DNA from: Prescottella equi
GTDB lineage: Bacteria > Actinomycetota > Actinomycetes > Mycobacteriales > Mycobacteriaceae
Reading direction: 5' to 3'
DNA length: 64,000 nt
Assembly: GCF_020171745.1 (NCBI RefSeq)
Contig: NZ_JAIVAH010000022.1
Span: forward strand, 186,001-250,000
The notes beneath the pieces are model-generated. The model searched no databases and was not told where the DNA came from. It saw only the letters and a list, made by a program, of their open reading frames with translations. Each line of letters starts with the position of its first letter. Positions within the stretch are counted from its first letter, which is position 1. Position numbers and translations under genes: made by a program. This document shows, one piece after another, positions 43,306 to 64,000 of the stretch.

Positions 43306-44583
43306 CTACAGCCGGGTGAACTTTCCGCTGTCCGACTCGAACTCCGTGAGCAGTTCGGTTGTGAGTGTCGGGCGGGTGTCGGCGATCGCCGCGAGGTAGT
43401 CCTCGGTGGTCGCCGGACGGCCCGACCGGTCGGCGACCTCGCGTTCGAACGCGGCCTGCGAGCCCTTCCGAGAGGCGAACTCGATGTCGGCGGGGGTGAA
43501 CAACTCGCTCGCCTCGACCAGTCGATCGAGGTCGACATGGGCTGCCGAGGCGCCGAGATACCGTTGCCAGACGGCCTTCCGGGCAGGCTCGTCGGGCGGG
43601 CCGACCGGGATCACGTAGTCGAAGCGCCCCGGCCGCAGGAACGCCGAGTCCAGGGAATGCACCGAGTTGGTGGCGCACACCATCAGTCGGCGCTCGCCCT
43701 CGCGGAACGCGGGAATGAGCTTGAGGAGTTCGTTCGTGACCCCGTGCGCCGGGTTGGTGGCGACTCCTGTTCGGGCGCTGGCGATCTCCTCGACCTCGTC
43801 GATGAACAGCACCACCTCGTCGAGGTCGGCCAGATCCGCGAAAACCTCGCGTAGCGACGCGGCGAGACCGCCCTCGGAGGAGGCGGCGAGTCGGGACGGG
43901 AACAGTTCGACGAACGGCCAGTCGAGTCGGGAGGCGATGGCCTTGGCGAAGCTGGTCTTGCCGGTTCCGGGTGGGCCGAACAGGATCACCGCCTTGGGCG
44001 GCTGCACGCCGTAGCGGTCGGCGAGATCGGGGTTCTCGAGCGGCGAGACGATGCGGCGCTCGATGACCTCCTTGACGCCCTCCATGCCGGACATGGTGTG
44101 CCAGAGGCCGTCCGGCATGACCCGGCCACCGAGTTCGCTGAGCAGTGTCTTGTCCGGGCCCAGCGGTTCGAGCATTTCGTAGTAGACGAGGCCGTCGCGG
44201 CGGTGGTAGCCGGAGTGCTCGAACGCCGCCGATCCGGTGGCGGCATCCGGGAGCACTGCCGAGATGCGGTGCGCGCCGGCGCTCCGCAGCCGCCGCTCGA
44301 GGTTGGCGAGCAGTGCGCTCCCGATACCGCGGTTGCGCCAGCGTGCTCCGAGCGCGACGAGCAGTATCCACGCGCGTTCACCGTGGACCTGCGCGACGGC
44401 CATGCCCACCAGTTCGTCACCGACGGTCGCCACCACCGCGGGCTGCCCGGCCCGCGCAGCGGCCATCACCTCCGCGAGCGTGAACACCGGTTCCGGGGAG
44501 CCAGGCACCCGGCTCTGATCCCAGATCTGGATGGCCTGGTCCAGATCGTCGTTCTGGAAGTCGCGCAATCGCCACACCGGCAT
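43306..44583 (-). CDS. GNAT acetyltransferase fused to an AAA+ ATPase
   Basis: A 425-residue two-domain protein. Residues 1-140 form a GNAT domain with the acetyl-CoA motif RNRGIGSALL (83-92); the remainder is an AAA+ ATPase with Walker A GPPGTGKT (203-210), Walker B VLFIDEVEEI (about 258-267), sensor ATNSVHSLDSAFL and arginine finger region LRPGRFDYV. The ATPase resembles FtsH/Cdc48-type modules, without a protease domain. Fusion of an acetyltransferase to such an ATPase is unusual. Target proteins are unknown. It is convergent with mshC; stops are 1 bp apart. Confidence 0.88.
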   Translation of the reverse strand: MPVWRLRDFQNDDLDQAIQIWDQSRVPGSPEPVFTLAEVMAAARAGQPAVVATVGDELVGMAVAQVHGERAWILLVALGARWRNRGIGSALLANLERRLRSAGAHRISAVLPDAATGSAAFEHSGYHRRDGLVYYEMLEPLGPDKTLLSELGGRVMPDGLWHTMSGMEGVKEVIERRIVSPLENPDLADRYGVQPPKAVILFGPPGTGKTSFAKAIASRLDWPFVELFPSRLAASSEGGLAASLREVFADLADLDEVVLFIDEVEEIASARTGVATNPAHGVTNELLKLIPAFREGERRLMVCATNSVHSLDSAFLRPGRFDYVIPVGPPDEPARKAVWQRYLGASAAHVDLDRLVEASELFTPADIEFASRKGSQAAFEREVADRSGRPATTEDYLAAIADTRPTLTTELLTEFESDSGKFTRL

Positions 44584-47795: not shown

Positions 47796-48632
47796 TCAGT
47801 GGAAGACGGCGAGTGCGCGCTGGAAGCTGTCGATCCGCTGGACCAGGCCGTGCGTGCCGCCGTTGACGATGCGGGACACCGACTCGATGCTGCCGGAGTC
47901 CGACACGGCATTGAGGTTGCGGGACTGCCAGTACCACGCGGCGGTCTCGAAGGCGTTCTCCGGCGTCGCCATCAGCTCGGGGTTCGCGATGAAGTCGATG
48001 CCGAGGTACTGGCTGACGCTCTCGTAGTTGTGGCGTCCGGTCACCTGGATGGCGCCGCGGCCCTTGAAGCGCTCGCCGTCGCCGGGTGCGAAGTTGCCCA
48101 GATCCGAGCGCCCCTCGTAGGCGCGACCGGACGCGTACTCCTCGAACGTGCGGAACGAGTCGGACTCGACCACCAGCTGCGCGATGAACGCGGCCTTCCG
48201 CAGCGGGGTGTCGATGGCGGCCTTCGCCAGCGCCTCGTTCAGCGGCGCGACGTACTGCGCCAGGCGGTCGGGAGCCACCTGCGGGACGATGTTCACGAGC
48301 TCGTCGAGCGTGACCGACGCGGGAGCCGGCGGGGGCGGGGGTGCGGGCAGGGTCGGTTCCGGCATGACCCGCGCCTGCGGGACGGGCGCCGGTGCCGTGG
48401 AGGACAGGGGAAGGTCGAGTGCCTTCAGCAGTCCGGCGGTGTCGAGGAACTGCGCGGGAGCGGCGGGTAACGCCGGTGCGACGCTCGCGTTGGCGACCGG
48501 GCCGGTCGCAAGGTTGCCGGCACACAGCCCGGCGACGGTGGCGGTGGCGAGGACGGCGACACGGGCTCGCGACAGGAGTCCGCGCTGGGTGCCGCTCTTG
48601 CGATCGGTCGTGCAGTCAGGGGTGTTGTGCAA
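47796..48632 (-). CDS. Secreted GH19-like lytic hydrolase (chitinase/lysozyme type)
   Basis: A 278-residue protein with an N-terminal signal peptide (basic RKSGTQRGLLSRAR, then hydrophobic VAVLATATVAGLCAGNLATG, likely cleavage after VANA). After a Pro-rich linker (about 95-110) the C-terminal domain has KAAFIAQLVVESDSFRTFEE with the catalytic Glu, GRGAIQVTGRHNYESVSQYL and ENAFETAAWYW, the pattern of glycoside hydrolase family 19 enzymes. It probably cleaves peptidoglycan-like glycans. The first codon appears to be TTG at 48632; a nearby out-of-frame ATG is not used. A CRP-like site and a long leader lie upstream. Confidence 0.8.
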   Translation of the reverse strand: MHNTPDCTTDRKSGTQRGLLSRARVAVLATATVAGLCAGNLATGPVANASVAPALPAAPAQFLDTAGLLKALDLPLSSTAPAPVPQARVMPEPTLPAPPPPPAPASVTLDELVNIVPQVAPDRLAQYVAPLNEALAKAAIDTPLRKAAFIAQLVVESDSFRTFEEYASGRAYEGRSDLGNFAPGDGERFKGRGAIQVTGRHNYESVSQYLGIDFIANPELMATPENAFETAAWYWQSRNLNAVSDSGSIESVSRIVNGGTHGLVQRIDSFQRALAVFH

Positions 48633-49069
48633 GGCTCATGCTCCGGCTTTGGGCTGCGGGGGCAGCCATGTCGGGCGTGAACACCGGTATCATCGGAAGC
48701 GGTCGTCGTGATCGAGACCGTTTGATCACCGGGTGGTCACGGCAATGTCACAACCAGATAACAGGCCGTTACCGAAGATCTTCAAGTCATCGAGACGAGT
48801 GCCACTCTGGGCATTTAAAGTGACTCAGATCACATATTCGACGGCGCGTCGTTACAGGGTTTGTTACCTCAGCCCTGGTAATTGGGTCTTTCCTGGGTGT
48901 TCGGACGGGGTCGTGAAACAGCCTGTCGTGACCTTTCAGCAGCCGGATCGGCTCCGACATCGAGGCGGATCAATCTCCCGATCGTCTCTAGGTGCGCGAC
49001 GTGCATCCGTTCGTGACATTCGTTCGTGACCTCACCGACCCACACCGATACGTGTCCGCGACCGTGGAC
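48633..49069. other. 437-bp intergenic region upstream of the GH19 gene
   Basis: The longest gap in the window. On the minus strand a -35 TTGAAG (48785-48780) and -10 TGTTAT (48763-48758) with a 16-bp spacer are seen, so the hydrolase mRNA has about 120 nt of leader. A CRP-like site is at 48819-48834. The leader has several short inverted repeats, but I do not recognise a riboswitch family. Nothing coding is supported between 48835 and 49069. Confidence 0.6.
48819..48834. promoter_or_regulatory. CRP/GlxR-type site upstream of the GH19 gene
   Basis: AGTGACTCAGATCACA differs from the CRP consensus TGTGA-N6-TCACA by one base in the left half. It is about 75 bp upstream of the likely transcription start, a class I activating position. 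Actinobacterial CRP/GlxR regulators control cell-wall hydrolase genes, including some rpf genes, so this fits. Confidence 0.7.
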
Positions 49070-49504
49070 TCAATCCCAGAAATCGGCCTTGGTGTACTCG
49101 GAGAGCGGCGAGAACCCCATACCTCTCAGTTCCGCCGACTCGCACGTGTGCCCGAACTCGTCGGTGCAGACGAGTGATCGGCCGACGTCGGTGCAGACGA
49201 AGGCAGCCGCCTCGGGAACGCGTGACTCAGCGATCTCGAATCGGGCGACGGACTCGAGAACCGGCGCGTCCGGGAGGTTGCGATTGCGGGACGGCTGACC
49301 GCTGTGAGGGTCGAGCTCGAGCTCGACGTCGGAGGCTGCCAAGTCGATCACCGAGGCCCACTCGCCCCAGCGCAGGTAGTTGTACCGCTTCGCGGCAGGA
49401 TCGGGATCGAACGGGTCCCAATCCCACGGCCGATCGAGCGTCCCCCTTCGATACGGGCGGGCAGCCCGGCTCCCCGACGACGTACTCGAGAACCAGAGCG
49501 TCAC
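49070..49504 (-). CDS. Orphan 144-residue protein at the jetD position
   Basis: A 144-residue protein starting with GTG 11 bp after the jetC stop. It has Trp/Asp-rich segments (DRPWDWDPFDPDP, RYNYLRWGEWASVIDLA) and an Ala/Cys-containing C-terminal half (FVCTDVGRSLVCTDEFGHTC), ending YTKADFWD. It has no transmembrane segment or catalytic motif that I recognise. It does not resemble JetD (a ~400-residue topoisomerase VI-like protein). No good ribosome site is seen, so it may be translated by coupling to jetC. Function unknown; an inhibitor, accessory or simply unrelated protein are all possible. Confidence 0.6.
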   Translation of the reverse strand: MTLWFSSTSSGSRAARPYRRGTLDRPWDWDPFDPDPAAKRYNYLRWGEWASVIDLAASDVELELDPHSGQPSRNRNLPDAPVLESVARFEIAESRVPEAAAFVCTDVGRSLVCTDEFGHTCESAELRGMGFSPLSEYTKADFWD

Positions 49505-49515
49505 GCGGCGGTGTC

Positions 49516-52500
49516 CTAGGCGTCCGCGAACTCGAGTCCGCCGGTGGCCGTCGCCGGGACACGCCGACGCAGTGGCGAGCCGAGGGCGCGCGCGAGGTCG
49601 CTGCCGTCGTGCTCGGCCAGCAGGTCGCCACCGGACCACACGAGCAGCGCCGCGCTCACGCTCTGTTCGGCGGTCGAGTGCGCGAGGTCGTAGTGAGCAC
49701 AGCCCGGGACTCCCGCGTAGGTGATCCAGAGGTCGTAGCCCGTCATGAACAGGTCGAGGTCGAACTGGACGCTCAGGCCCAGCAGTTCGCTGCGCCCGTT
49801 GTCGTCGACACCGGCGAACGCCTCGTCCAGACCGAGCAGGCGCGGGGAGTGCGGATCGGCCGACGAGAGCATCACGTGTGCGGCAGCGAACAGGGGAAGG
49901 TGCAGGGACACGGACTGCTCGCCACCGGAGAGGGCACTGTGCCGTGCCACGGTGAGCCGGTCCTCGCTGCCGTCCCCTCCGATCAGCGTGAACGAGAACA
50001 CCCGCCACCGCCGGTAGTCGAGTGCCGCGGCCAGGATCTCGGGGTACGAACGCTCCGGGTGCGCGGCCCGGGCGATCCGGACCTGCGCGGCGAAGTGTGC
50101 CCGGATCGTGGCCATCTCGTCAGCGCTCAGCGCCGAGGTCGCGCGGTCCAACAGTTTGGAGACGGCCCGAGAGCTGTCGTCCAGGTTGTCGGCGAGCACC
50201 CAGTGCACGCCGATCGTGCTGCCCGAGGACATGCGGCGCTCGCGCATCTCGGCACCCATCTGTGCGATCAAGTCGCGGGCGTCGGCGGTGCGTTCGTGGA
50301 TCTGCTGGGCGAGCCCGGTCAGCAGGGCGTCCTCGAGGATGCGTCGCTCGGAATCGGTGAGCAGGACCTCCTGGTCCTGACGTGCCGCCGCGATCCGGGT
50401 CGAGAACTCGCCGATCGACGAGTAACCCTGATCGTCCTGGACGCGGACGACGGTCAGCCCGTCCGGCGCGTCCCACTGCAGGCGGTAGTCCTGGCCGGCC
50501 GCGGCGAGCTGGGCGTCGAAGTCCTGCAGTGCCGCGGTGAGCGCCGACCGGGTCGACTTCTTCGCGTTCTCGCTGGTCCGGACCGACGCGGTCGCGGTGT
50601 CCATCGCCCGATAGAGCGCCGACACCTCGGGCGGCAGGATCGGGGCGTCCGGGTCGCCCTCGGTGACGATCCGGTAGACCAGCTGGTCCGGGGTGAGCCA
50701 CGCCGCAGAACTCTGCGGCCACGCGTGCTCGCTGTCGACGCCGAGCAGGTCGAGCAGATCGCGCCGTGCGTACGGCGCGAGCCGGTCGGCGTCGGTGCGG
50801 GTCTCGGTGAGCGCGCTGCGCAGGCCCTCGACCGCGGCGTTGTGGGCGCCCTCGGCCTTGCCGATCTGTTCGACAGCGGCGTCGTAGGCCTTGCGCGCGC
50901 CGCGCTGCTCGGTCTTGCACACCTCGATCCGCGCGCGGGCCTCCTCGAGATCGGCGTCGATCTGCTCGGCGCTCGCGCCCAGGGCCTCACGCAGCGTCTC
51001 GAGCCGGGAGACTTGCTGGGCGTAGTTCTCCTCCGCGACCGCGGCCTCCTCGACGAACTCCTCGGTGTTACCGCGGGCCTCGTCGAGCCGGTCCTCGGCC
51101 TCGCGATGAAGCTCGAGTTCCTTCTCGTGTTCGCGGCGGCAGCGCAGAAGCTGCTCGCCCTGACTCTCGAAATGCCGGATCGAGGCGGCGAGCGCGTCGA
51201 TCTCGCGGGCATGGTGCGACGCGCGGTGCGTGACCGCGACCGAACGAAGCTGCTTCTCCTTGGCCGTGTGGTCGGCGATGGCCTGGTCGAGTTCCTGCCC
51301 GGACGACGCGGTCGACTCCGACCGGGTCCGTAGCGCGCCGGCCGCCTCGGTCAGCTTCTTGATCGCGCCGTGGACGGCGGAGGTGCGCGGCAGCGCCTTC
51401 GCGGCGCCCGCGAGACTGTCGAGCAGCGCCTTCGTGTCCGCTTCACCGGCGCGGGCCGTGGCCCGGGCCTCCTCGGCTGCGGCGATCTCGGCGTCGAGTT
51501 CGGCGATGCGCTGGGCACGCCGCCGCTCGCGGGCCGTGGTGCCGATGTACTCGGCCTCGGCCTTGACGTGGCGACCGCGCGCGATGCCCTGCCAGAACCG
51601 GCCGTCCACTCCGATGCCGACGGTCGCGTCGTGCGCGGTGCCGTCGCGGTCCAGCGACACCGACTCGAGGATCGCGCGGACCCGCTCCTCGGGCACGCCG
51701 GCATCCGCTTCCACGGTGAGGACGTCGGCCAGGGTCGGACCGTGCGGGCGGCGCTCCTCGGGCAGCGGCTCGAGGAACTGCTCGGACTCGAGGTCGGACG
51801 GAGCATCGTCGCCGGCGAAGACCCAGCCGTCGAGCAGATTGGCGGCGGCGAGCGCCGACTCGACACCCGCGGCGACGGCGGGGTCGACGTCGTCGGCGAA
51901 GCGCACCAGACGCCACAGCGGGGCACCGTCGAGCCCGCTGCGGTCGCCGGTGCGGGACGCGAATCCCGCAGGGGCATCGTCCTTCTCGGCCACAACGTGC
52001 TTGCGGTCCGCCTGCAGTTCCGCGATCCGCGCGGTTGCGGCCGACTGTTCGGCGGCGGCCTCGCGGCGGCGGGCCCGCTGCTCGTCGAGCGCGGATTCCA
52101 CTTGCTCGTGCAGCACCGTGCTCAGGCTGGGCGAGTCGTCGTCGCCGGCCTGGGCCAGCGCCTTGTCGAGCGCGGAGAAGAGGTCTGCCGTGACCCCGAT
52201 CGCGGCGTAGTCCGCGGAATGGTCGGTCCACCAGGCACGCAGTGACGCCGCGCAGTCGGCGCGCGCCAGTTCCACGGACGCCTCGGCCTCGGCCACCGCG
52301 GCCTGGGCTGCGTCGAGCAGCTCTCGGCCCTTGTCGGCGGCCCGGTCGGCCCGCTCGCGTTCGGTGCTCGCCTTCTCGACGGTGCCCAGCGCGGCCCGCA
52401 CGGCCCGGACGTCGCCGTCGCGTTCCTCGGCGTGTCCGCGGACGGCGGCGATGATCTGGTCCGGCCGCGAGCCGTCCGGCAGCGGTGTCCACGCGATGCC

Positions 52501-53688
52501 GGCCTGCTCCGCGGCCTCGGCCAGCTCGGTCTCCGCCCGCACGAGGGCCGCGGTGGCGGTCCGCACCGATTCGGTTGCGCGGGTTGCCTCGCCGGTGCGC
52601 TGCTCGAGTGTGGCTTGCGCCTTGCGGGCCTTGTCGGCCTGCTGCTCGGTCGACAGCTTGAGCTGCGCGACGGCGGCGGCGAGGTCGTCGAGCTGCTGCT
52701 TGCCCTCGTAGGCACCCGAACGCTGCAGGGTGTCGAGATCGGCTCGGGCCTGCTCGAGGGCGCGTTCGGCGGCGGTGAAACGGTCCTCGGCGAGCAGTCG
52801 CTCCTCCTGCCGCGACGACTGCAGCGCGACCGCGGCATCGAGCACCGACTGCGCGCGCTCGACGGATTCGAGGCGCCGGGCCACCTGCTCGACATCGGTG
52901 CGGGCCTGCTGCGCCAGGTACTTCGAGTACACGGTCACGAAGCTCTGCGCGGCCTGGTCCGCGGCGGCCAGACCCTCGAGCGCCCGGCCGACCTCCTCCA
53001 TGTCGCTGAAGGAGCGCGCGGCCTCGAGTACGAGCTGCTCGTCGAGCGGGCGCAGGCCGTCGGTGAGGGCCTGCGACAGCCCCTTGGGGTCGAGGTTCTT
53101 CGCCAGCTGTGGTCGGCGCAGCGTCAGGATCAGGTTGATCAGCTGGTCGTACCGCTCGGCGCCCAGCCCGAACAGGCGCGCGTCGATGGCGCCGCGGTAG
53201 TCGACCGGACGGTCGGTGATGGCGTCACTGCCGAGCTGTTCCGCGAGTTGCTTCTTCGTCAGCGGCCGGTCGTCGTCGCCGAGCAGCGAGAAGTCCACGC
53301 CGACGCGGCCGTCGGCGACGAAGTACCAGCGGGTGACCTTGTCGTTCTGCCGGCTCGCGCGCATACCGATACCGACGGTGACGGCCTCGGGATCGTCCTG
53401 CGGTCCGCGGGCGAACTCCATCCACACGTACGAGTGCGCCGAATCCTGGCCCCGGTAGAGCAGGTTCGACTTCATCGTCCGTTCCTCGCCGGCGAACGGA
53501 TTGAGCCGCCGGGGCTCGATGCGTCCGTCGAACACGAACGGGAACAGCACCTCGAGCGCCTTCGTCTTCCCGGATCCGTTCGGACCGCGGAGCACGAGCC
53601 GGCCGTCCGCGAACGAGAACTCCTGGTCGCGGTAATCCCAGAGATTGATGATCCCGGCGCGGGTCGGCTTGAAACGCGCAGATGCCAT
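49516..53688 (-). CDS. jetC: JetC/MukB-like SMC ATPase (type I Wadjet, TIGR02680)
   Basis: A 1390-residue SMC-like ATPase. Walker A is GPNGSGKT at residues 35-42, following LVLR, the start (RAGIINLWDYRDQEFSFADG) is typical of the TIGR02680 family, the centre is a long coiled coil rich in Ala, Glu and Arg, with a hinge region in the middle, and the C-terminus has the signature HSALSGGEQSVSLHLPLF (about 1250) and Walker B LLGLDEAFAGVDDNGR (about 1283). The length matches JetC. In Wadjet, JetABC extrudes DNA loops and hands small circular DNA to the JetD nuclease. The gene starts 21 bp after jetB. Confidence 0.93.
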   Translation of the reverse strand: MASARFKPTRAGIINLWDYRDQEFSFADGRLVLRGPNGSGKTKALEVLFPFVFDGRIEPRRLNPFAGEERTMKSNLLYRGQDSAHSYVWMEFARGPQDDPEAVTVGIGMRASRQNDKVTRWYFVADGRVGVDFSLLGDDDRPLTKKQLAEQLGSDAITDRPVDYRGAIDARLFGLGAERYDQLINLILTLRRPQLAKNLDPKGLSQALTDGLRPLDEQLVLEAARSFSDMEEVGRALEGLAAADQAAQSFVTVYSKYLAQQARTDVEQVARRLESVERAQSVLDAAVALQSSRQEERLLAEDRFTAAERALEQARADLDTLQRSGAYEGKQQLDDLAAAVAQLKLSTEQQADKARKAQATLEQRTGEATRATESVRTATAALVRAETELAEAAEQAGIAWTPLPDGSRPDQIIAAVRGHAEERDGDVRAVRAALGTVEKASTERERADRAADKGRELLDAAQAAVAEAEASVELARADCAASLRAWWTDHSADYAAIGVTADLFSALDKALAQAGDDDSPSLSTVLHEQVESALDEQRARRREAAAEQSAATARIAELQADRKHVVAEKDDAPAGFASRTGDRSGLDGAPLWRLVRFADDVDPAVAAGVESALAAANLLDGWVFAGDDAPSDLESEQFLEPLPEERRPHGPTLADVLTVEADAGVPEERVRAILESVSLDRDGTAHDATVGIGVDGRFWQGIARGRHVKAEAEYIGTTARERRRAQRIAELDAEIAAAEEARATARAGEADTKALLDSLAGAAKALPRTSAVHGAIKKLTEAAGALRTRSESTASSGQELDQAIADHTAKEKQLRSVAVTHRASHHAREIDALAASIRHFESQGEQLLRCRREHEKELELHREAEDRLDEARGNTEEFVEEAAVAEENYAQQVSRLETLREALGASAEQIDADLEEARARIEVCKTEQRGARKAYDAAVEQIGKAEGAHNAAVEGLRSALTETRTDADRLAPYARRDLLDLLGVDSEHAWPQSSAAWLTPDQLVYRIVTEGDPDAPILPPEVSALYRAMDTATASVRTSENAKKSTRSALTAALQDFDAQLAAAGQDYRLQWDAPDGLTVVRVQDDQGYSSIGEFSTRIAAARQDQEVLLTDSERRILEDALLTGLAQQIHERTADARDLIAQMGAEMRERRMSSGSTIGVHWVLADNLDDSSRAVSKLLDRATSALSADEMATIRAHFAAQVRIARAAHPERSYPEILAAALDYRRWRVFSFTLIGGDGSEDRLTVARHSALSGGEQSVSLHLPLFAAAHVMLSSADPHSPRLLGLDEAFAGVDDNGRSELLGLSVQFDLDLFMTGYDLWITYAGVPGCAHYDLAHSTAEQSVSAALLVWSGGDLLAEHDGSDLARALGSPLRRRVPATATGGLEFADA

Positions 53689-53709
53689 GCGAAAGGTGCC
53701 TCTACTTCT

Positions 53710-55107
53710 CTAGGAGTGCTGGTCGGCGGGAACCGGTTCGTGGAACAACTCGGACTGGGCCGTGCGGTCGCGGATGTTGACGACGACGCCGCGGAACCGG
53801 GCGATCGGCGGCAGCACCAGGACGCCACCGTCGACGCTGCGGATCAGCTGCAGCCGGTCGAGGAGCGCAATCGCGTTGCGGCGCAGGCCGTTGCGGTCGG
53901 CCTGCCACTGCGCGGCGAAGGTCCGTCCGAACCGGAGGACGAGTTCGTCGACGGCGGCGGTGACCCACTCGTCGTCGAGGAGCGCGTACCGAGCGGGTTC
54001 GACGGTGTCGTCGGCGTGCTCCGCCGGGTCCGTCGGCAGGGCCGGCTCGAACGCGTCGGCCAGCTGCTCGAAGATCCCGGCGCGCGGGATCGCGGAGTCC
54101 AGTCGCTCGATCAGCTCGGCCTGGTCGGTCGTCGGCAACGGGTGCCGGGGGAGCGGTGGGGCGTCGAGATCGAGGACGCGGTCGGCCATCTCGCCGGCGA
54201 GGAGCAGGGCCACCTGCGCGATGGTGCCGGTGCTCGGGAACCGCACGTCGGACATCCGGCCCGACGGATCGATCATCGCGATGCCCTCGGCGCGGCGTTC
54301 GGCGACCAGCCCGGTGAGGTCCTCGACGTCGGCCGCCGTGCGGGGCAGCGCCAACTGCAGCCGCTCGTCGTCGGTGAGACTGTCCGCGTACACGACGGGG
54401 CGTTCGACCAGCGCGCGCCGCATCCGACGGGCGGTCTCCCGGGCATCGGTGGGGCGGTGGGCGGTGATGTCGTCGACGGGCACTGCCTCGCCGGCCAGCA
54501 GGGAACGCGCCGACGTCACGTGCTGCAGGGCCCGCGGTGGACGGAACAGCGCCACGACGACGGACCGGTCGATGTCGTAGAGGGCCTCGCCCGCATCGGG
54601 ATTCGACGCCCACCCGCCCGCGTCGCCGTCGGCGAGGACGATCGCGCCTCGCGCGGCGAGCCAGCCGACGGCGTCGACGAACGCGTCTCGGTCCGCGGCC
54701 CGGTCGGTGGACAGCGCCACGCCGGGGACCTGCGCGGCCTCGGTCGCGACGTGATCCGCCAGCTCCGACAGCGTGATCTGGTTGCCGGCGCGGCCCAGGG
54801 CGGCGAGCGCCAGCGCCAGGTACGCGTAACGGTGCCGGTCGAACGCGCGGTCGTTGCTCGTGCGCGCCGGGGCACCCGGCTCGAGCCGGTCCGCGACCGT
54901 GAACAGCCGCGCGGTGGTCTCGGTGACCTCCAGCCGGTACCCGAACAGCTCGAGCAGGTCGTCGCGGAGCTCGGTGGCCCACCGCCGCAGCAGCGGCAGC
55001 GCTAGCCGATCGGGATAGGTCTGCGTCACAAGGTGGTTCGAGAGAATGACGCGGGCCGCCCGCTGGTACGAATCGAGGTCGAGCGGGGAGACTGAACGGT
55101 TCCTCAT
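53710..55107 (-). CDS. jetB: JetB/MukE-like condensin subunit (TIGR02678)
   Basis: A 465-residue protein fitting the TIGR02678 (DUF2398) family, the MukE-like subunit of type I Wadjet. It begins DLDSYQRAARVILSNHLVTQ with the typical winged-helix start, then LDLDAPPLPRHPLPTTDQAE in the second half and a C-terminal winged helix FRGVVVNIRDRTAQ. MukE-type proteins bind the kleisin and DNA. Its ATG overlaps the jetA stop (ATGA). Confidence 0.9.
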   Translation of the reverse strand: MRNRSVSPLDLDSYQRAARVILSNHLVTQTYPDRLALPLLRRWATELRDDLLELFGYRLEVTETTARLFTVADRLEPGAPARTSNDRAFDRHRYAYLALALAALGRAGNQITLSELADHVATEAAQVPGVALSTDRAADRDAFVDAVGWLAARGAIVLADGDAGGWASNPDAGEALYDIDRSVVVALFRPPRALQHVTSARSLLAGEAVPVDDITAHRPTDARETARRMRRALVERPVVYADSLTDDERLQLALPRTAADVEDLTGLVAERRAEGIAMIDPSGRMSDVRFPSTGTIAQVALLLAGEMADRVLDLDAPPLPRHPLPTTDQAELIERLDSAIPRAGIFEQLADAFEPALPTDPAEHADDTVEPARYALLDDEWVTAAVDELVLRFGRTFAAQWQADRNGLRRNAIALLDRLQLIRSVDGGVLVLPPIARFRGVVVNIRDRTAQSELFHEPVPADQHS

Positions 55108-56618
55108 CGGACGCTCACCCGCAATCCGTCCAGGTGAAGCTTGCCGCGCGCGGTCTGCACGACGGTCGATTCGCCGTACGGGCTGAGCGTCAGCTTGACG
55201 CCGTTCTCCGATCCGGTGGAGCTGGGAACGGATCCGGTGACCGGAACCCGTGCGGTGAGTGCCGCGTTGAGCAGGCTGAGCAGGACGTCGGTCTCCTGCT
55301 CGTCGAGTACGCGGTCGTAGGCGCCGGACGCGGCCAGCGACGACGCCGCGATCGCGCGGGCGCGCTGCGAGGCCAACTGTTCCTCACGAAGTCGGCGGAT
55401 GCTGCCCTCGTTGCGCTGCATGCGCGACGGCATCCCGGGCTGCGCGGCGCGGCCGGTCTCGGCGAGCGTGCGGGAGATCTCCACCGGAGTCGCGTCCCAC
55501 CACGACCGGGACTCGGGAATGATGTCCGCGTCCGGATGCACCATCGACAGGTGCCGCGGCCGGCCCAGATCGAAGACGAGTTGGAACAGGGCGTGCGCCG
55601 AATCCTCGTCGGGTGTCGCGGCGAACCAGCCGGCGAGGTGCCGCAACTGGCTCTCCCGGCTCACGCCGCCGCGGCGGGTCTCGGTGACCCGGCGCAGCAG
55701 CGACAGCACCGCCGCGATCGCGCTCATCGTGCCCTCCCGCAGCCGGTCGGATTCGCTCGGCCCCGCGGCCGCGACGAACCACTGCGCCAGTCCGGACCAG
55801 CGCGCCCGCCAATCGGATTCGCGCTCCTCACGGGACAGGAAGACCCGGTCGTCGCTGGCGGCGGCCCGGGCGATCAGCGATTCGATCCCGGTCGCCTCCA
55901 CGTTCGCGATGGCCGCGCCCAGCTTCGGGGCGTACCGCGCGAGGTCGGAGCTGAACTCGCGCATGTGGCTGAGCAGCGCGTCCTTGTGGGAGAGGAAGGC
56001 CTCCGGCGTGATCTCCGTGGTGCGCACCAGATCGCCGAGCATCAGGTAGAACTGGGCGGCCCTCGCGGCCATGTCGGTGAGCGTCGAGTCCAGGCGGGCG
56101 AGCTTGCGGTAGATGAGGTCGCCGTCGCCGTGCCGGTTGGCCTGGGCGAGTTCCTCGAGGTCGGCGAGCAGATCGGGCAGCGCGAGGCGCGAGAGGGTCG
56201 CGTCCTCGAGGCGTGCGCCCAGCAGCTCCTCGACGGCTCGGAAGGCCAGGTAGCCGGCCTGGCTGAACTGGTACACGAAGTGCCGGTTCCGGTACTCGGC
56301 GAGCGTCGCGGCGCGGCTGCCGTCGTAGCTGCGTTCGAGCACGCCCCACGTGTGCAGCTGCTCGAGCAAGGGAGTGATGTCACCGGAGGTGAGCGCGCCC
56401 GAGGGATCGTCGCCGGTGATGCGGGTGAGGATGTCGGCGACCTCGCCGGCATGCAGCAGCACAACGTAGTTGGCGCGCGCATGGTCGAAGGCGCGCATCA
56501 CCCACAGATAGTCGGTGCGCTTCTCCGCCGTGGTGAAGGAGAACAGCCGCAACCGGTCCTCGCGCACCGCGAAGTCGACGTCCGCGACGGACGCGCGCGG
56601 GTCACCTGAATCGCTCAC
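55104..56618 (-). CDS. jetA: JetA/MukF-like kleisin subunit (TIGR02677)
   Basis: A 504-residue TIGR02677 (DUF2397) protein, the MukF-like kleisin of type I Wadjet. The N-terminal RLRLFSFTTAEKRTDYLWVM and HFVYQFSQAGYLAFRAVEEL blocks are typical; a helical centre and a C-terminal winged helix follow. The kleisin links the two JetC heads and carries JetB. The GTG start follows a TAGGCT -10-like box by 6 nt, giving a probable leaderless mRNA. It is the first gene of jetA-jetB-jetC. Confidence 0.9.
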   Translation of the reverse strand: MSDSGDPRASVADVDFAVREDRLRLFSFTTAEKRTDYLWVMRAFDHARANYVVLLHAGEVADILTRITGDDPSGALTSGDITPLLEQLHTWGVLERSYDGSRAATLAEYRNRHFVYQFSQAGYLAFRAVEELLGARLEDATLSRLALPDLLADLEELAQANRHGDGDLIYRKLARLDSTLTDMAARAAQFYLMLGDLVRTTEITPEAFLSHKDALLSHMREFSSDLARYAPKLGAAIANVEATGIESLIARAAASDDRVFLSREERESDWRARWSGLAQWFVAAAGPSESDRLREGTMSAIAAVLSLLRRVTETRRGGVSRESQLRHLAGWFAATPDEDSAHALFQLVFDLGRPRHLSMVHPDADIIPESRSWWDATPVEISRTLAETGRAAQPGMPSRMQRNEGSIRRLREEQLASQRARAIAASSLAASGAYDRVLDEQETDVLLSLLNAALTARVPVTGSVPSSTGSENGVKLTLSPYGESTVVQTARGKLHLDGLRVSVR

Positions 56619-56667: not shown

Positions 56668-57738
56668 TCACCTGTGGCGGCGCATCTCGCGGCGCCAGGC
56701 GGACTCGTCCGCGCGCAGCATCGTCAGCTGGTAGTCGGCGGCATCGGGATGCCGGAACGGTCCGGCGACGAGATCCGCGTAGGCGTGGGACTGGGCGACG
56801 CAGCGCACTCCGGCACGGATCTGCATGCGCTCGAACACGACCGCAGACCAGGGTGTCGCGATCACGACGTCGCCGCCGCCGTCGACGGGACGTAGGTCGA
56901 ACTCGGACGCGAAGGCGTCCACGTCGTCGGCATACATTTCGAGCACGTCGGCCTTCGCGTAGTCGGTAGCGCCGATACCGGTCACCGCGTAACCGAGGTC
57001 GCCGTTGCTCGCGGCGAGCCGCTCACGCAGGTCGTCGAGTCCGTCGGGCGACGCGAAACGCCGCGTGGGGCAGGGCTTGCGATCGGTCGCCCACGCCCGC
57101 AGCATGTGCTCCCAACGGACGCCGGTGACGGGGCCGCGCGGCATGCGGCTGAGCAGCTCGCGCTCGAACAGCACCTCGACCACGCGATAAGCGGCACCGG
57201 TCGAGGCACCCGACAGCTTGATCAGTTCGGGCACCGACACCTCGCCGACGTGGTCGGCGAGGGCGCGAACGATCCGCTCGGACGGCTCACCCGTGAGGAC
57301 CCCGGACGGGCGGCCCGGTCCCCGCCACGGATCCGCGTCGGCGCCCCGGTTGCGCACCCAGATCGCGGGACGGTCCGCGACGAGCGTGAGGTTGCCGGTG
57401 GCGTCGGCGTACGAGATGCCGTGCGAGTCGAGTTGCCGGCGCACCGGGTCCGACAGGTAGTGCGCGCACACGAAACCCCGGTCGCTGTCGGTGAGCTCGT
57501 TCGCGATGCGGGCGATGTCGCCGCTCAGGACGCCCTTGGACGTGATGATCGAGTACGACACCGTGTCACCGTCGGGGGCGGTGACGAGCAGCCGGTTCGG
57601 AGCGGCGGGGGAGCGGGGACGGTCGGCCGACACGCTCCAGCCGTTGGGCAGCGCGACTTCGAGCCACGACACGGCGCGACGGTAGATGTCGATGCCGCGC
57701 TCGGGGCGAGGGTTCGGTGCAACGTCCGTGATGCTCAC
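56668..57738 (-). CDS. Winged-helix protein resembling AbiEi-type regulators
   Basis: A 356-residue protein upstream of jetA by 49 bp. Residues 1-125 look like an alpha/beta nuclease-like or nucleotide-binding fold (RRQLDSHGISYADATGNLTL, the pattern of AbiEi-family N-termini), then a winged helix ALADHVGEVSVPELIKLSGA (about 155-175) and a C-terminal domain FERMQIRAGVRCVAQSHAYAD. This arrangement is like AbiEi-type antitoxins/regulators of Actinobacteria. The GTG at 57738 is preceded at 7 nt by TACTGT, so it is leaderless. It could control the jet genes or be a separate anti-phage component; no toxin partner (AbiEii) is present. Confidence 0.6.
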   Translation of the reverse strand: MSITDVAPNPRPERGIDIYRRAVSWLEVALPNGWSVSADRPRSPAAPNRLLVTAPDGDTVSYSIITSKGVLSGDIARIANELTDSDRGFVCAHYLSDPVRRQLDSHGISYADATGNLTLVADRPAIWVRNRGADADPWRGPGRPSGVLTGEPSERIVRALADHVGEVSVPELIKLSGASTGAAYRVVEVLFERELLSRMPRGPVTGVRWEHMLRAWATDRKPCPTRRFASPDGLDDLRERLAASNGDLGYAVTGIGATDYAKADVLEMYADDVDAFASEFDLRPVDGGGDVVIATPWSAVVFERMQIRAGVRCVAQSHAYADLVAGPFRHPDAADYQLTMLRADESAWRREMRRHR

Positions 57739-57876
57739 ATTCGTCACAGTAGTCACTCTGTGCACTACGGAACCACCAGAAACTCCGAAATCGGCTCGGC
57801 GTGTCGCGTGGAGATCTGCCCGGGACGGAAACGCTGGAATTACCGAATCTGGCCGGTTACCGGACACCGTTCGGCT

Positions 57877-59972: not shown

Positions 59973-60023
59973 GCACCCAGCCTACGACCAGGGGCCGACG
60001 AGCCGCCCACTACTCTGGACGGC

Positions 60024-63000
60024 ATGTCTGCACCATTCCACTCTGCCCTGCTCGATGCGCTGAAGCAGCGCGTTGTCATCGGCGACGGCGCCATGGGCAC
60101 GATGTTGCAGGCCGCGGATCTGACTCTCGACGACTTCCTCGGCCTCGAAGGCTGCAACGAGATTCTCAACGAGACCCGTCCCGACGTGCTGCGCGACATC
60201 CACCGCGCGTACTTCGAGGCCGGCGCCGACGCGGTCGAAACCAACACTTTCGGTTGCAACCTCCCGAACCTCGCCGACTACGACATCTCCCACCGCATCC
60301 GGGATCTCTCCGAGCGCGGCACCCGGATCGCCCGCGAGGTCGCGGACGAGATGGGCCCCGGACGCGACGGCATGGGCCGCTTCGTCCTCGGCTCGATGGG
60401 CCCGGGCACGAAACTGCCCACCCTCGGCCACGCCCCGTTCGCGGTGCTGCGCGACGCCTACACCGAATCCGCACTCGGCATGATCGAGGGCGGCGCCGAC
60501 GCGATCCTCGTCGAGACGTGCCAGGACCTGCTCCAGGTGAAGGCCGCGATCATCGGCAGCCAGAACGCGATGGAGAAGCTGGGCCGCCGCCTGCCGATCA
60601 TCACGCACGTGACCGTCGAGACCACCGGCACGATGCTGCTCGGCAGCGAGATCGGCGCCGCGCTCACGGCACTCGAACCGCTCGGCATCGACATGATCGG
60701 CCTCAACTGCGCCACCGGCCCGGACGAGATGAGCGAGCACCTGCGGCACCTGTCGCGGCACTCGACGCTGCCGGTGTCGGTGATGCCGAACGCCGGTCTG
60801 CCACAGCTGGGTCCGAACGGGGCCGAGTACCCGCTGTCGGCCGAGGATCTCGCGATCGCGCTCTCGGGCTTCGTGAGCGAGTACGGCCTCGCGTTCGTCG
60901 GCGGTTGCTGTGGCACCACTCCCGAGCACATCCGTCAGGTCGCGGACGCCGTCCGCAAGGTCGAGCAGGCACAGCGCACTCCGCAGCCCGAGGACGGCAC
61001 GTCCTCGCTGTACCAGGCGGTGCCGTTCGACCAGGACGCGTCGATCCTGATGATCGGCGAGCGCACGAACTCCAACGGCTCCAAGGCGTTCCGCGAGGCG
61101 ATGATCGCCGAGGACTACCAGAAGTGCATCGACATCGCGAAGGACCAGACCCGCGACGGCGCGCACATGCTCGACCTCAACGTCGACTACGTCGGCCGCG
61201 ACGGCGCCGCCGACATGGCCGCGCTCGCAAGCCGGTTCGCGACCGCGTCGACGTTGCCGATCATGCTCGACTCGACCGAGCCGGACGTGCTCCGTGCGGG
61301 TCTCGAGCACCTCGGCGGCCGCAGCGCGGTCAACTCGGTGAACTACGAGGACGGCGACGGCCCGACCTCCCGGTACCAGCGAATCATGAAGTTGGTCAAG
61401 GAACACGGTGCCGCCGTGGTGGCCCTGACCATCGACGAGGAGGGCCAGGCCCGCACCGCCGAGCACAAGGTGCGGATCGCCGAGCGGCTGATCCAGGACA
61501 TCACCACGACGTGGGGGCTGTCGCAGTCGGACATCATCATCGACGCGCTCACCTTCCCGATCTCCACGGGTCAGGAGGAGGTGCGCCGCGACGGCATCGA
61601 GACGATCGAGGCGATCCGCGAGATCAAGCGCCGCTACCCGGACGTCCACTTCACGCTGGGTATCTCGAACATCTCGTTCGGCCTCAACCCGGCCGCGCGT
61701 CAGGTGCTGAACTCGGTGTTCCTGCACGAGTGCACCGCGGCCGGCCTCGACACCGCGATCGTGCACGCCTCGAAGATCCTGCCGATGGCGCGGATCCCGG
61801 ACGAGCAGCGCGAGACGGCGCTCGACCTGGTCTACGACCGTCGCCGTGAGGGCTACGACCCGCTGCAGAAGCTCATGGAACTGTTCGAGGGCGTCTCGGC
61901 GGCCTCGGCGCGCGCGTCGCGTGCCGAGGAACTCGCGGCACTGCCGCTGTTCGAACGTCTTGCACGACGGATCGTCGACGGTGAACGGAACGGACTCGAG
62001 GCCGATCTGGATGCCGCGATGCTCGAGCGTCCGCCGCTCGAGATCATCAACGACACGCTGCTGTCGGGCATGAAGACCGTCGGCGAACTGTTCGGCTCCG
62101 GCCAGATGCAGTTGCCCTTCGTGTTGCAGTCCGCCGAGGTCATGAAGGCCGCGGTCGCGCACCTCGAGCCGCACATGGAATCGACCGGCGACGAGGGCAA
62201 GGGCCGGATCGTGCTCGCGACCGTCAAGGGCGACGTGCACGACATCGGCAAGAACCTGGTCGACATCATCCTGTCCAACAACGGGTACGAGGTCGTCAAC
62301 ATCGGCATCAAGCAGCCGATCGCGACCATCCTCGACGTCGCGGTCGACAAGAAGGCCGACGTCATCGGCATGTCGGGCCTGCTCGTGAAGTCGACGGTCG
62401 TGATGAAGGAGAATCTCGAGGAACTCAATGCGAAGGGTGTCGCGGAGCAGTTCCCGGTCCTCCTCGGTGGTGCGGCGCTCACCCGCTCGTACGTCGAGAA
62501 CGACCTGTCCGACGTCTACCAGGGCGAGGTCTCCTACGCGCGGGACGCGTTCGAGGGCCTGAACCTGATGGACACGATCATGGCCACCAAGCGCGGCGAG
62601 GGCCCGGCGCCGGACAGCCCGGAAGCCGTCGCGGCCGCCGAGAAGGCCGCCGAGCGCAAGGCGCGGCACGAGCGTTCGAAGCGGATCGCGGAGAAGCGCA
62701 AGGCCGATGCGGCACCGGTCGATGTGCCGGAGCGGTCCGATGTCGCCGCCGACATCGTCGTGCCGAAGCCGCCGTTCTGGGGAACGCGCATCGTGAAGGG
62801 CATCGCACTGGCCGAGTACTCGGGCCTGCTCGACGAGCGTGCGCTGTTCCTCGGGCAGTGGGGTCTGCGCGGTCAGCGCGCCGGCGACGGCCCGACGTAC
62901 GAGGAGCTGGTCGAGACCGAGGGGCGTCCGCGCCTGCGGTACTGGCTGGACCGGCTCAGCACCGAGGGCGTGCTGCACCATGCCGCCGTCGTCTACGGGT

Positions 63001-63593
63001 ACTTCCCGGCCGTCTCCGAGGGCGACGACGTGATCGTGCTCGAGTCCCCGGAACCCGATGCACCCGAGCGGTTCCGGTTCACGTTCCCGCGTCAGCAGCG
63101 CGACCGGTTCCTGTGCATCGCGGACTTCGTGCGCTCCCGCGAGGACGCCCGCAAGGACGGTCAGGTCGACGTGCTGCCGATGAATCTCGTGACGATGGGG
63201 CAGCCCATCGCGGACTTCGCGAACGAACTGTTCGCCGCGAACGCCTACCGCGACTACCTCGAGGTGCACGGCATCGGCGTCCAGCTCACCGAGGCGCTGG
63301 CCGAGTACTGGCACCGCCGGGTCCGCGAGGAACTGGTGCTGCCCAGCGGCCACAACCTGGCCGAGCAGGACCCGTCGAACGTCGAGGACTTCTTCAAGCT
63401 CGAATACCGCGGCGCGCGTTACTCGTTCGGCTACGGCGCCTGCCCGGACCTCGAGGACCGGCGCAAGCTCGTCGCGCTGCTCGAGCCGGAGCGGATCGGC
63501 GTCGAGCTGTCCGAGGAGGTCCAGCTGCATCCCGAGCAGTCGACCGACGCGTTCGTGCTGCACCACCCGGAGGCCAAGTACTTCAATGTTTGA
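60024..63593 (+). CDS. metH: B12-dependent methionine synthase
   Basis: A 1189-residue cobalamin-dependent methionine synthase with all modules: homocysteine domain with Zn cysteines (GLNCATG and GGCCGTTP, about residues 1-310), folate (pterin) domain MIGERTNSNGSKAF (about 335-620), the cobalamin cap and binding domain with DVHDIGKN (His ligand at about residue 738) and SGLLVKST, and the S-adenosylmethionine reactivation domain with RYSFGYGACPD near 1130. No riboswitch fits in the 51-bp gap upstream; a TACTCT -10-like box ends 7 nt before the ATG, giving a probable leaderless mRNA. A HAD gene overlaps its 3' end. Confidence 0.97.
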   Translation: MSAPFHSALLDALKQRVVIGDGAMGTMLQAADLTLDDFLGLEGCNEILNETRPDVLRDIHRAYFEAGADAVETNTFGCNLPNLADYDISHRIRDLSERGTRIAREVADEMGPGRDGMGRFVLGSMGPGTKLPTLGHAPFAVLRDAYTESALGMIEGGADAILVETCQDLLQVKAAIIGSQNAMEKLGRRLPIITHVTVETTGTMLLGSEIGAALTALEPLGIDMIGLNCATGPDEMSEHLRHLSRHSTLPVSVMPNAGLPQLGPNGAEYPLSAEDLAIALSGFVSEYGLAFVGGCCGTTPEHIRQVADAVRKVEQAQRTPQPEDGTSSLYQAVPFDQDASILMIGERTNSNGSKAFREAMIAEDYQKCIDIAKDQTRDGAHMLDLNVDYVGRDGAADMAALASRFATASTLPIMLDSTEPDVLRAGLEHLGGRSAVNSVNYEDGDGPTSRYQRIMKLVKEHGAAVVALTIDEEGQARTAEHKVRIAERLIQDITTTWGLSQSDIIIDALTFPISTGQEEVRRDGIETIEAIREIKRRYPDVHFTLGISNISFGLNPAARQVLNSVFLHECTAAGLDTAIVHASKILPMARIPDEQRETALDLVYDRRREGYDPLQKLMELFEGVSAASARASRAEELAALPLFERLARRIVDGERNGLEADLDAAMLERPPLEIINDTLLSGMKTVGELFGSGQMQLPFVLQSAEVMKAAVAHLEPHMESTGDEGKGRIVLATVKGDVHDIGKNLVDIILSNNGYEVVNIGIKQPIATILDVAVDKKADVIGMSGLLVKSTVVMKENLEELNAKGVAEQFPVLLGGAALTRSYVENDLSDVYQGEVSYARDAFEGLNLMDTIMATKRGEGPAPDSPEAVAAAEKAAERKARHERSKRIAEKRKADAAPVDVPERSDVAADIVVPKPPFWGTRIVKGIALAEYSGLLDERALFLGQWGLRGQRAGDGPTYEELVETEGRPRLRYWLDRLSTEGVLHHAAVVYGYFPAVSEGDDVIVLESPEPDAPERFRFTFPRQQRDRFLCIADFVRSREDARKDGQVDVLPMNLVTMGQPIADFANELFAANAYRDYLEVHGIGVQLTEALAEYWHRRVREELVLPSGHNLAEQDPSNVEDFFKLEYRGARYSFGYGACPDLEDRRKLVALLEPERIGVELSEEVQLHPEQSTDAFVLHHPEAKYFNV

Positions 63594-64000
63594 TCGAACG
63601 TCGGTGGAGGTCGGCACCCTGCGTGCCGTCCTGTGGGACATGGACGGCACGCTGCTCGAGTCCGAGAACCTGTGGGACATCGGGGTCCGCGAGCTGTCGC
63701 TGCACCTCGGTGGTCCGATGTCGGAGGAGACCCGGCAGGCGACCATCGGGGCGTCCAGCTACAACGCGCTGATCACGGTGTTCGCAGCGCTCGACCTGGA
63801 TCCGAATCCCGGTGCGCTCGCGGACGCCAAGCGCTGGCTGTACACCCGGATGGGGGCGTTGTTCGAAGCCGGTCTGCCGTGGCGGCCGGGTGCGCAGCAG
63901 GCGCTGCGCACCGTCCGCTCGGCGGGGCTGGGTTCGGCGCTCGTGACCAACACCGACCGGGAACTGTGCGAGTTCGCGCTCGACACCCTGGGTCGCGAGC
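63586..64000 (+). CDS. HAD-family hydrolase, N-terminal part
   Basis: The start of a HAD phosphatase gene; the 3' end lies beyond the window. Motif 1 DMDGTLLESE has the nucleophile Asp, and motif 2 is ALVTNTDRE. It overlaps the metH stop by 8 bp, with a GGAGG site about 12 nt upstream, so it is translated together with metH. At least 138 residues are visible. The substrate is probably a small phosphomonoester; which one is not known. Confidence 0.85.
   Translation, partial: MFDRTSVEVGTLRAVLWDMDGTLLESENLWDIGVRELSLHLGGPMSEETRQATIGASSYNALITVFAALDLDPNPGALADAKRWLYTRMGALFEAGLPWRPGAQQALRTVRSAGLGSALVTNTDRELCEFALDTLGRE

Follow-up and report, generated by a model that had tools for sequence, protein, structure and literature searches.

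A type II Wadjet motor without a recognisable JetD nuclease in Prescottella equi and many of its relatives

In Wadjet systems, as characterised in PMC12647877 and PMC10586767, the JetABC motor extrudes DNA and the JetD nuclease cuts once extrusion of a circle is complete. Here we describe a jetABC locus of Prescottella equi for which no jetD could be found, either beside the motor genes or elsewhere in the genome. The locus lies in a stretch of 64,000 nucleotides (assembly GCF_020171745.1, contig NZ_JAIVAH010000022.1, positions 186,001 to 250,000), hereafter the window, and positions are counted from its first letter. JetC was found in 14/14 genomes of the window's genus and JetD in 0/14, and the same state recurs in several related genera. 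The reading we favour, and consider probable, is that the locus encodes a type II Wadjet motor which, after the loss of JetD, has been kept for ATP-driven looping of DNA without cutting. We are considerably more confident of the narrower proposition that the locus encodes a functional motor without a dedicated nuclease.

The jetABC genes

The three motor genes are as follows:
55104..56618, minus strand: jetA, kleisin-type subunit of 504 residues with a GTG start; DUF2397 at 487.7 bits
53710..55107, minus strand: jetB, KITE-type subunit of 465 residues with an ATG start; DUF2398 at 234 bits
49516..53688, minus strand: jetC, SMC ATPase of 1390 residues with an ATG start; TIGR02680 at 720 bits

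Each product clears the cut-off of its family, with 238.6 bits for JetA against TIGR02677 (cut-off 165.85), 141.1 bits for JetB against TIGR02678 (cut-off 124.65) and the 720 bits of JetC against a cut-off of 462.85. JetC also carries the Walker A motif GPNGSGKT at residue 35, the signature LSGGEQS at residue 1253 and the Walker B motif LLGLDEAF at residue 1284. A reading made earlier from the sequence alone had described complete genes for JetA, JetB and JetC, and the coordinates, lengths and family matches bear this out; so too the tight coupling it had noted, with jetA and jetB overlapping by 4 bp and a gap of 21 bp between jetB and jetC.

The same sequence-only reading had called the cluster type I Wadjet-like, and here it has to be corrected. 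The best PADLOC models are JetA2 (617 bits), JetB2 (704 bits) and JetC2 (1433 bits), and the type I model JetC1 reaches merely 40 bits; because of this, the products are by sequence family type II Wadjet subunits, not type I. JetA and JetC furthermore match, by sequence, the solved subunits of PDB 9qe0/9qe1 (E 9.3e-14 and E 1.2e-67, respectively, both against 9qe0), while a PDB sequence search with JetB returned no match. The locus therefore has the JetA, JetB and JetC families and the intact ATPase motifs of a type II system, and neither PADLOC nor the search for the type I JetD_C domain (0/14 genus genomes) placed it in the type I families. In its layout, an SMC-kleisin-KITE operon without MksG/JetD, it resembles MksBEF. 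JetC is 94% identical to that of P. equi DSM 20307, the genus being Prescottella (the R. equi group), and a canonical Smc is also encoded in the window's genome.

No JetD found in the genome or the genus

In related JetABCD loci, jetD lies directly downstream of jetC. The corresponding site in the window is:
48633..49515, minus strand: place of jetD in related loci; no jetD or recognisable remnant

The sequence-only reading had reported jetD missing from its expected place and from the window, which holds, and the whole-genome search for TIGR02679 and DUF2399 that it proposed extends the absence to the genome, with no jetD found at another site. TIGR02679 gave 0 matches with 7/7 candidates scored and DUF2399 gave 0 matches with 4/4 scored, these being all the first-look candidates in scans that held no control match. 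The JetD nuclease of a type II Wadjet (DUF3323 with DUF2399/TIGR02679) was thus found neither in the operon nor in the genome. Two near-relative JetDs carry DUF3323 and DUF2399 at 95-136 bits, and JetD profiles therefore work on this clade.

The search was widened to whole-genome scans of 401 genomes of the family, in which scoring was confined to the 4 or 5 leading first-look candidates of each genome. TIGR02679 matched 57/401 genomes, and a nearest-JetD profile, built from 14 rows of near-relative JetDs (two rows from one gene), matched 56/401; each matched 0/14 genomes of the window's genus. Type I JetD_C (PF09983) and the Top6A-type Toprim domain were likewise found in 0/14 genus genomes, with C. 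glutamicum as positive control for the former and four archaeal positive controls for the latter.

It is conceivable that a JetD is present and was missed through an assembly gap, excess divergence or relocation. The clade's JetDs do fall under the TIGR02679 cut-off in many genomes, and the limit of 4 or 5 scored candidates applies to every genome of the 401-genome scans. Against this, the contigs continue beyond jetC, the single-contig genus genomes G005, G007 and G008 likewise have no JetD match, all first-look candidates were scored in the window's genome, and the nearest-JetD profile was negative. We regard a missed JetD as the least credible of the explanations weighed here.

Distribution in the family and the phylum

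Across the family, JetC (E<1e-40) occurs in 159/401 genomes, and 103/159 of these have no TIGR02679 match anywhere. The JetD-less share of JetC genomes is 14/14 in Prescottella, 24/26 in the main Rhodococcus group (g23), 16/18 in the R. ruber group (g27), 25/43 in Nocardia (g22) and 8/37 in Rhodococcoides (g6), the genus names of the four numbered groups being our own assignment. In a sample of 246 genomes from the phylum, with a JetC threshold of E<=1e-60, 18 genomes had JetC, 2 in the family and 16 outside it. Both family members, the window's genome and a Nocardia (G059), lack JetD. Of the 16 outside the family, 15 carry JetD immediately after a JetC; for the last, G589, a contig edge truncates JetC to a fragment. 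With JetD downstream in 15/15 assessable genomes from outside the family, a JetC lacking JetD is thus an uncommon state among type II Wadjets, concentrated in this family. The difference, 103/159 against 0/15 JetD-less, has a Fisher p of 5e-7, which serves as a guide only, as the genomes are related.

In a second set, of 80 named loci, jetD is present in 18, absent in 60, and 2 loci end too early to judge. The JetD-bearing loci include those of Rhodococcoides fascians A44A, R. kyotonense JCM 23211, R. tibetensis, Rhodococcus sp. SMB37, Antrihabitans stalactiti, a record labelled R. ruber IEGM 1391, and Rhodococcus strains whose JetC identity suggests a place near Rhodococcoides. In this set no jetD was found at the locus in Prescottella, R. 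erythropolis, R. koreensis, R. wratislaviensis, R. ruber NBRC 15591 or the assessable Nocardia, and R. erythropolis NBRC 15567 (L223) has a JetABC-only locus. The comparison of neighbours across Rhodococcus that the sequence-only reading suggested shows that its interpretation was too narrow: the JetD-less state holds in all 14 genus genomes and is common in several related genera, and is not a trait of one strain.

Other type II branches were also seen in the family. Three loci of the R. ruber group (L137, L143 and L146) hold a distant second type II JetABC, 27-35% identical to that of the window over the matched parts, and none of these 3/3 loci of that clade fetched from the group has a JetD within the fetched stretch. 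In genus g13, the JetC of three loci (L037, L039 and L040) falls in the ordinary type II branch at 1205-1241 bits, and TIGR02679 found no JetD in their genomes. Judged by eye, a same-strand open reading frame (ORF) past jetC in L037 resembles a SWIM-type zinc finger protein, and the opposite strand of L039 and L040 carries a glycosidase-like gene past jetC.

History of jetD in the clade

Within the window's JetABC clade, the history of jetD was followed over 83 loci, of which 14 carry JetD and 69 do not. The set excludes the frameshifted G003, other-clade loci (L037-L054, L136, L137, L139, L143, L145 and L146) and duplicate copies of one place; JetA rows are available for 70/83 loci. One locus, L055, offers 754 bases past jetC, and its genome has no JetD match. 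Because the set is not random and many JetD-bearing Rhodococcoides genomes lie outside it, 14/83 understates the JetD-bearing share, and the whole-genome counts given above (159/401 and 103/159) are fairer. Five of the 69 JetD-less rows, all Nocardia (G294, G340, G348, G356 and G372), do have a JetD elsewhere in the genome, near another jetC. A profile made from the 14 clade JetDs alone found the same 14/83 loci positive and the window negative.

These 14 JetDs all occupy one place, and they form one lineage with 100% support in the SH-aLRT branch test against 26 rows (20 distinct) of other JetDs. The 83-row JetC tree needs a minimum of 6 changes of JetD state, a figure that holds when the count is restricted to well-supported branches, and if one gain and no regain are assumed, 16 losses of JetD result. 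Sister pairs that differ in JetD state are joined at 99-100% support (L098/L101, L095/L114 and L058/L060). Type II loci sampled beyond the family carry JetD at this same position, and its presence is therefore the likely ancestral state.

Alignments of JetD-bearing with JetD-less loci show a jetD-sized step in 3/4 cases, with the genes beyond in unbroken order. A step of ~1.17 kb separates Rhodococcoides kyotonense JCM 23211 (with jetD) from KB10 (without), where both flanks align and the loci remain collinear to ~7.9 kb past jetC. Similar steps were found between R. fascians A44A (with) and KB10 (~1.2 kb), and between R. tibetensis (with) and R. koreensis (without; ~1.19 kb). For L180/L181 the following gene is ~3.3 kb further from jetC in the JetD-less locus, and this site has consequently been rearranged.

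Remnants of jetD were sought in JetD-less loci by ten tblastn comparisons with a clade JetD, and one match fell below E 0.01. That match, in L058 (E 2.6e-5), was taken for an overlap with jetC and not a remnant: it lies at the end of jetC and covers just residues 1-47 of a query that itself extends into this gene. Separately, two jetD matches in other genomes are interrupted, one in Nocardia by internal stop codons (G348:C1:4161871-4162880) and one in the R. ruber-type group by a split into pieces (G230:C216:1896-2915); each may represent decay or sequencing error.

Maintenance of JetABC without JetD

JetABC without JetD is under purifying selection. The ratio of nonsynonymous to synonymous substitution rates (dN/dS) in five Prescottella pairs is 0.05-0.10 for JetA, 0.08-0.18 for JetB and 0.06-0.14 for JetC, and five further JetD-less pairs range from 0.01 to 0.18. 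These values are low, though at the top end they lie somewhat above those of the JetD-bearing pairs given below. The ATPase motifs are kept as well: 83/83 JetC rows have Walker A and LSGGEQS, though one row differs by a residue next to Walker A and six differ by a residue ahead of the signature, and Walker B is LLALDEAF or LLGLDEAF in 83/83.

Within the genus, jetC is in one open frame in 13/14 genomes. The exception, G003, has both jetB and jetC frameshifted, and as several neighbouring genes are broken too and the genome is 79% complete, these breaks point to sequencing errors. The notion that the locus is a functionless, decaying remnant draws on the absence of JetD and on the broken genes of G003; the dN/dS values of about 0.1, the intact motifs, the open jetC of the other genomes and the probable sequencing errors in G003 all argue the other way, and we consider decay very improbable.

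Synteny is also preserved. Within the stretches fetched, the genus loci share a 1254-residue gene and an MFS gene upstream, a 399-residue gene by jetA, a glycoside hydrolase 19 (GH19) gene downstream and usually an Nramp gene beyond. Given this genus-wide synteny and the intact motifs, the shared locus looks more like a lasting function of the cell than a transient defence island.

Residues that might have contacted JetD were considered as a further source of evidence. Sites invariant in JetD-bearing loci and below 60% in JetD-less ones number 20/309 in JetA, 4/197 in JetB and 9/590 in JetC, and they are mildly enriched in JetA 151-300 (Fisher p 0.013). Because 9/11 of the JetD-bearing JetA rows come from one genus, this enrichment is a hint only and was set aside.

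Neighbouring genes and the search for a substitute nuclease

Three further features flank the motor genes:
49070..49504, minus strand: ORF of 144 residues, sole to this genome among the loci compared; no Pfam family; not JetD
47796..48632, minus strand: secreted-looking GH19 protein, PF00182 at 40 bits; next gene downstream in the genus and outside the system
56668..57867, minus strand: protein of 399 residues upstream of jetA, possibly a winged-helix regulator; HTH_IclR match weak, below cut-off

One conceivable escape from a nuclease-free reading is that another nuclease replaces JetD, acting with JetABC from elsewhere in the genome. Other SMC-like defence complexes, such as Lamassu, do have varied effectors (PMC10586767, in its treatment of these complexes). 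Several results make such a replacement improbable here. Downstream ORFs of >=90 residues were clustered by single linkage, and among the 40 largest families listed, none was a same-strand family in JetD's place common to JetD-less loci of several genera. In the genus the gene in that place encodes the GH19 protein, whose relatives follow jetC, on the same strand, in the window and in 12 intact loci of the genus. Neither a type I JetD nor a Top6A-type Toprim was found in the 14 genus genomes, as reported above.

The 399-residue protein was tried as a substitute nuclease and rejected, because a relative lies ~1.6 kb from jetA in R. tibetensis (L160), which is itself a JetABCD locus. This protein is matched in 13/13 genus relatives (one cut by a contig end and one in pieces); its gene adjoins jetA in Prescottella and the R. 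erythropolis group, and lies farther away in R. koreensis and R. wratislaviensis. A PDB search by sequence found no relative, and its structure model is poor (mean pLDDT, the predicted local confidence, 48.6).

The 144-residue protein, for which the sequence-only reading had left room for a strong JetD similarity, offers none: it belongs to no Pfam family, and tblastn found no relative in 110 + 80 loci (best E 0.32). Its GC content by codon position (0.63/0.54/0.81) is compatible with a real gene, and it is far shorter than the JetDs of relatives, which mostly have ~400-430 residues of open frame.

A divergent JetD in the R. ruber-type group was also entertained, after one cluster joined the 14 JetDs with ORFs of nine JetD-less loci, and was rejected, the connection running through stretches that overlap jetC. 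In the part beyond jetC, five of these loci, all from that group, encode a single secreted glycosidase-like protein, its copies 89-100% identical to that of L061 over the matched part, and the remaining four have short tails of 40-97 residues. None of the nine scores against the JetD profile (best E 0.39). Of the two alternatives that the sequence-only reading had offered, a loop extruder without cleavage like MksBEF is the one we prefer, and for the other, a different nuclease, no candidate was found beside the genes.

Some other genes of the region and genome may be recorded here. The 1254-residue protein (window 59982-63746, minus strand) has no Pfam match; Prescottella and several related genera conserve it upstream of the jet genes. 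At window 43306-44583 (minus strand), GNAT acetyltransferase and AAA ATPase domains are fused in one gene, whose product is 82-96% identical in genus relatives where found. Elsewhere in the window's genome, a weak SMC-type match lies inside a 1588-residue open frame (G000:C35:22130-22864).

Function, relation to known systems and significance

As a proposed mechanism, the JetC SMC ATPase, the JetA kleisin and the JetB KITE protein would together form a type II Wadjet motor that has lost JetD; JetABC would still load on DNA and extrude loops like other JetABC motors; and its most likely present role would be condensin-like work on the chromosome beside Smc, as a second condensin, such as is reported for MksBEF of Pseudomonas aeruginosa. 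This proposal is made because of the published division of labour between JetABC and JetD, the origin ascribed to MksBEF, and the canonical Smc in the same genome. On whether the chromosome is the main substrate, our judgement is evenly balanced.

Among known systems, the closest is Wadjet type II itself, as in PDB 9qe0/9qe1 and in the Neobacillus vireti system nvJET described in PMC12647877. The window's locus has the same JetA, JetB and JetC families at full length, and some relatives in the same motor clade have JetD; it differs in that JetABCD systems include JetD, and none was found in the window's genome or the 14 genus genomes. For MksBEF of P. aeruginosa, a review (PMC10586767) proposes an origin from Wadjet by loss of JetD, so the conversion of a Wadjet into a condensin by this route is an idea already in print for MksBEF. 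By sequence family the window's locus is type II (JetC2 far above JetC1), which would make it a separate case, and its chromosomal role is only proposed. MksBEFG of C. glutamicum, a type I Wadjet, resembles the window's system in being actinobacterial and coexisting with Smc, but it has MksG/JetD and belongs to another sequence family, whose PF09983 domain was not found in the 14 genus genomes.

In the part of the open-licence literature that could be consulted, no description of a JetD-less type II Wadjet in Rhodococcus or Nocardia was found. Among the defence systems given for R. erythropolis NI86/21 in PMC12915292 (Table 4) is a Wadjet_II made up of just three proteins, which would fit the JetABC-only locus of R. 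erythropolis NBRC 15567 if, as seems reasonable, the three are JetA, JetB and JetC; the listing as given there makes no remark on a missing fourth gene.

The main rival to a chromosomal role, and what would be the more surprising result, is that nuclease-free JetABC recognises small circular DNA and compacts it by complete extrusion, hindering its transcription, replication or segregation without cutting, in the way that eukaryotic Smc5/6 silences extrachromosomal circles. Circle and size sensing are credited to JetABC and not to JetD, and Smc5/6 restricts circular DNA by silencing (both in the review text of PMC10586767); the conservation of JetABC after loss of JetD would suit such a role too. 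In C. glutamicum, however, the MksG nuclease is reported as required for plasmid control, and because deletion of the nuclease by itself raises plasmid copy number, the motor alone is insufficient there (PMC10123090, in the experiments it describes). On balance we think this silencing role unlikely, though a good deal less so than decay of the locus.

Several observations weigh against the favoured reading, that of a type II motor retained for DNA looping after loss of its nuclease. For the type I MksBEFG of C. glutamicum, no detectable chromosomal role is reported in PMC7083940. Among JetD-less pairs dN/dS rises to 0.18, higher than in three JetD-bearing pairs (0.05-0.10), in what is a loose comparison, the latter being more diverged (dS 0.8-1.5). 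The JetD tree only partly follows the JetC tree, the g15 JetD pairing with the g27 JetD at 83%; this departure makes some exchange of jetD possible, and from these trees loss and repeated exchange are not formally separated. An unrelated nuclease supplied from elsewhere in the genome would also count here, improbable as it was judged above.

For the Rhodococcus-Nocardia group as a whole, we advance tentatively a wider proposition: jetD alone may have been lost several times independently, the bare JetABC becoming a lasting part of the cell, either as an MksBEF-like condensin of independent origin or as an Smc5/6-like silencer of foreign circles. The occurrence of close relatives with and without jetD at one site would allow a direct test of the route from defence to condensin.

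The matter also bears on how Wadjet is counted. According to the survey figures of PMC10482375, Wadjet is enriched in Actinobacteria (42% of genomes, as against 7% elsewhere), and 73% of Rhodococcus genomes combine Wadjet with restriction-modification and either Eleos or PD-T4-3. If many such Wadjet calls are JetABC without the nuclease, they are not to be read as plasmid-cutting defence. In Prescottella and its relatives, a system that is usually labelled as defence may instead be a non-cutting machine for folding DNA.

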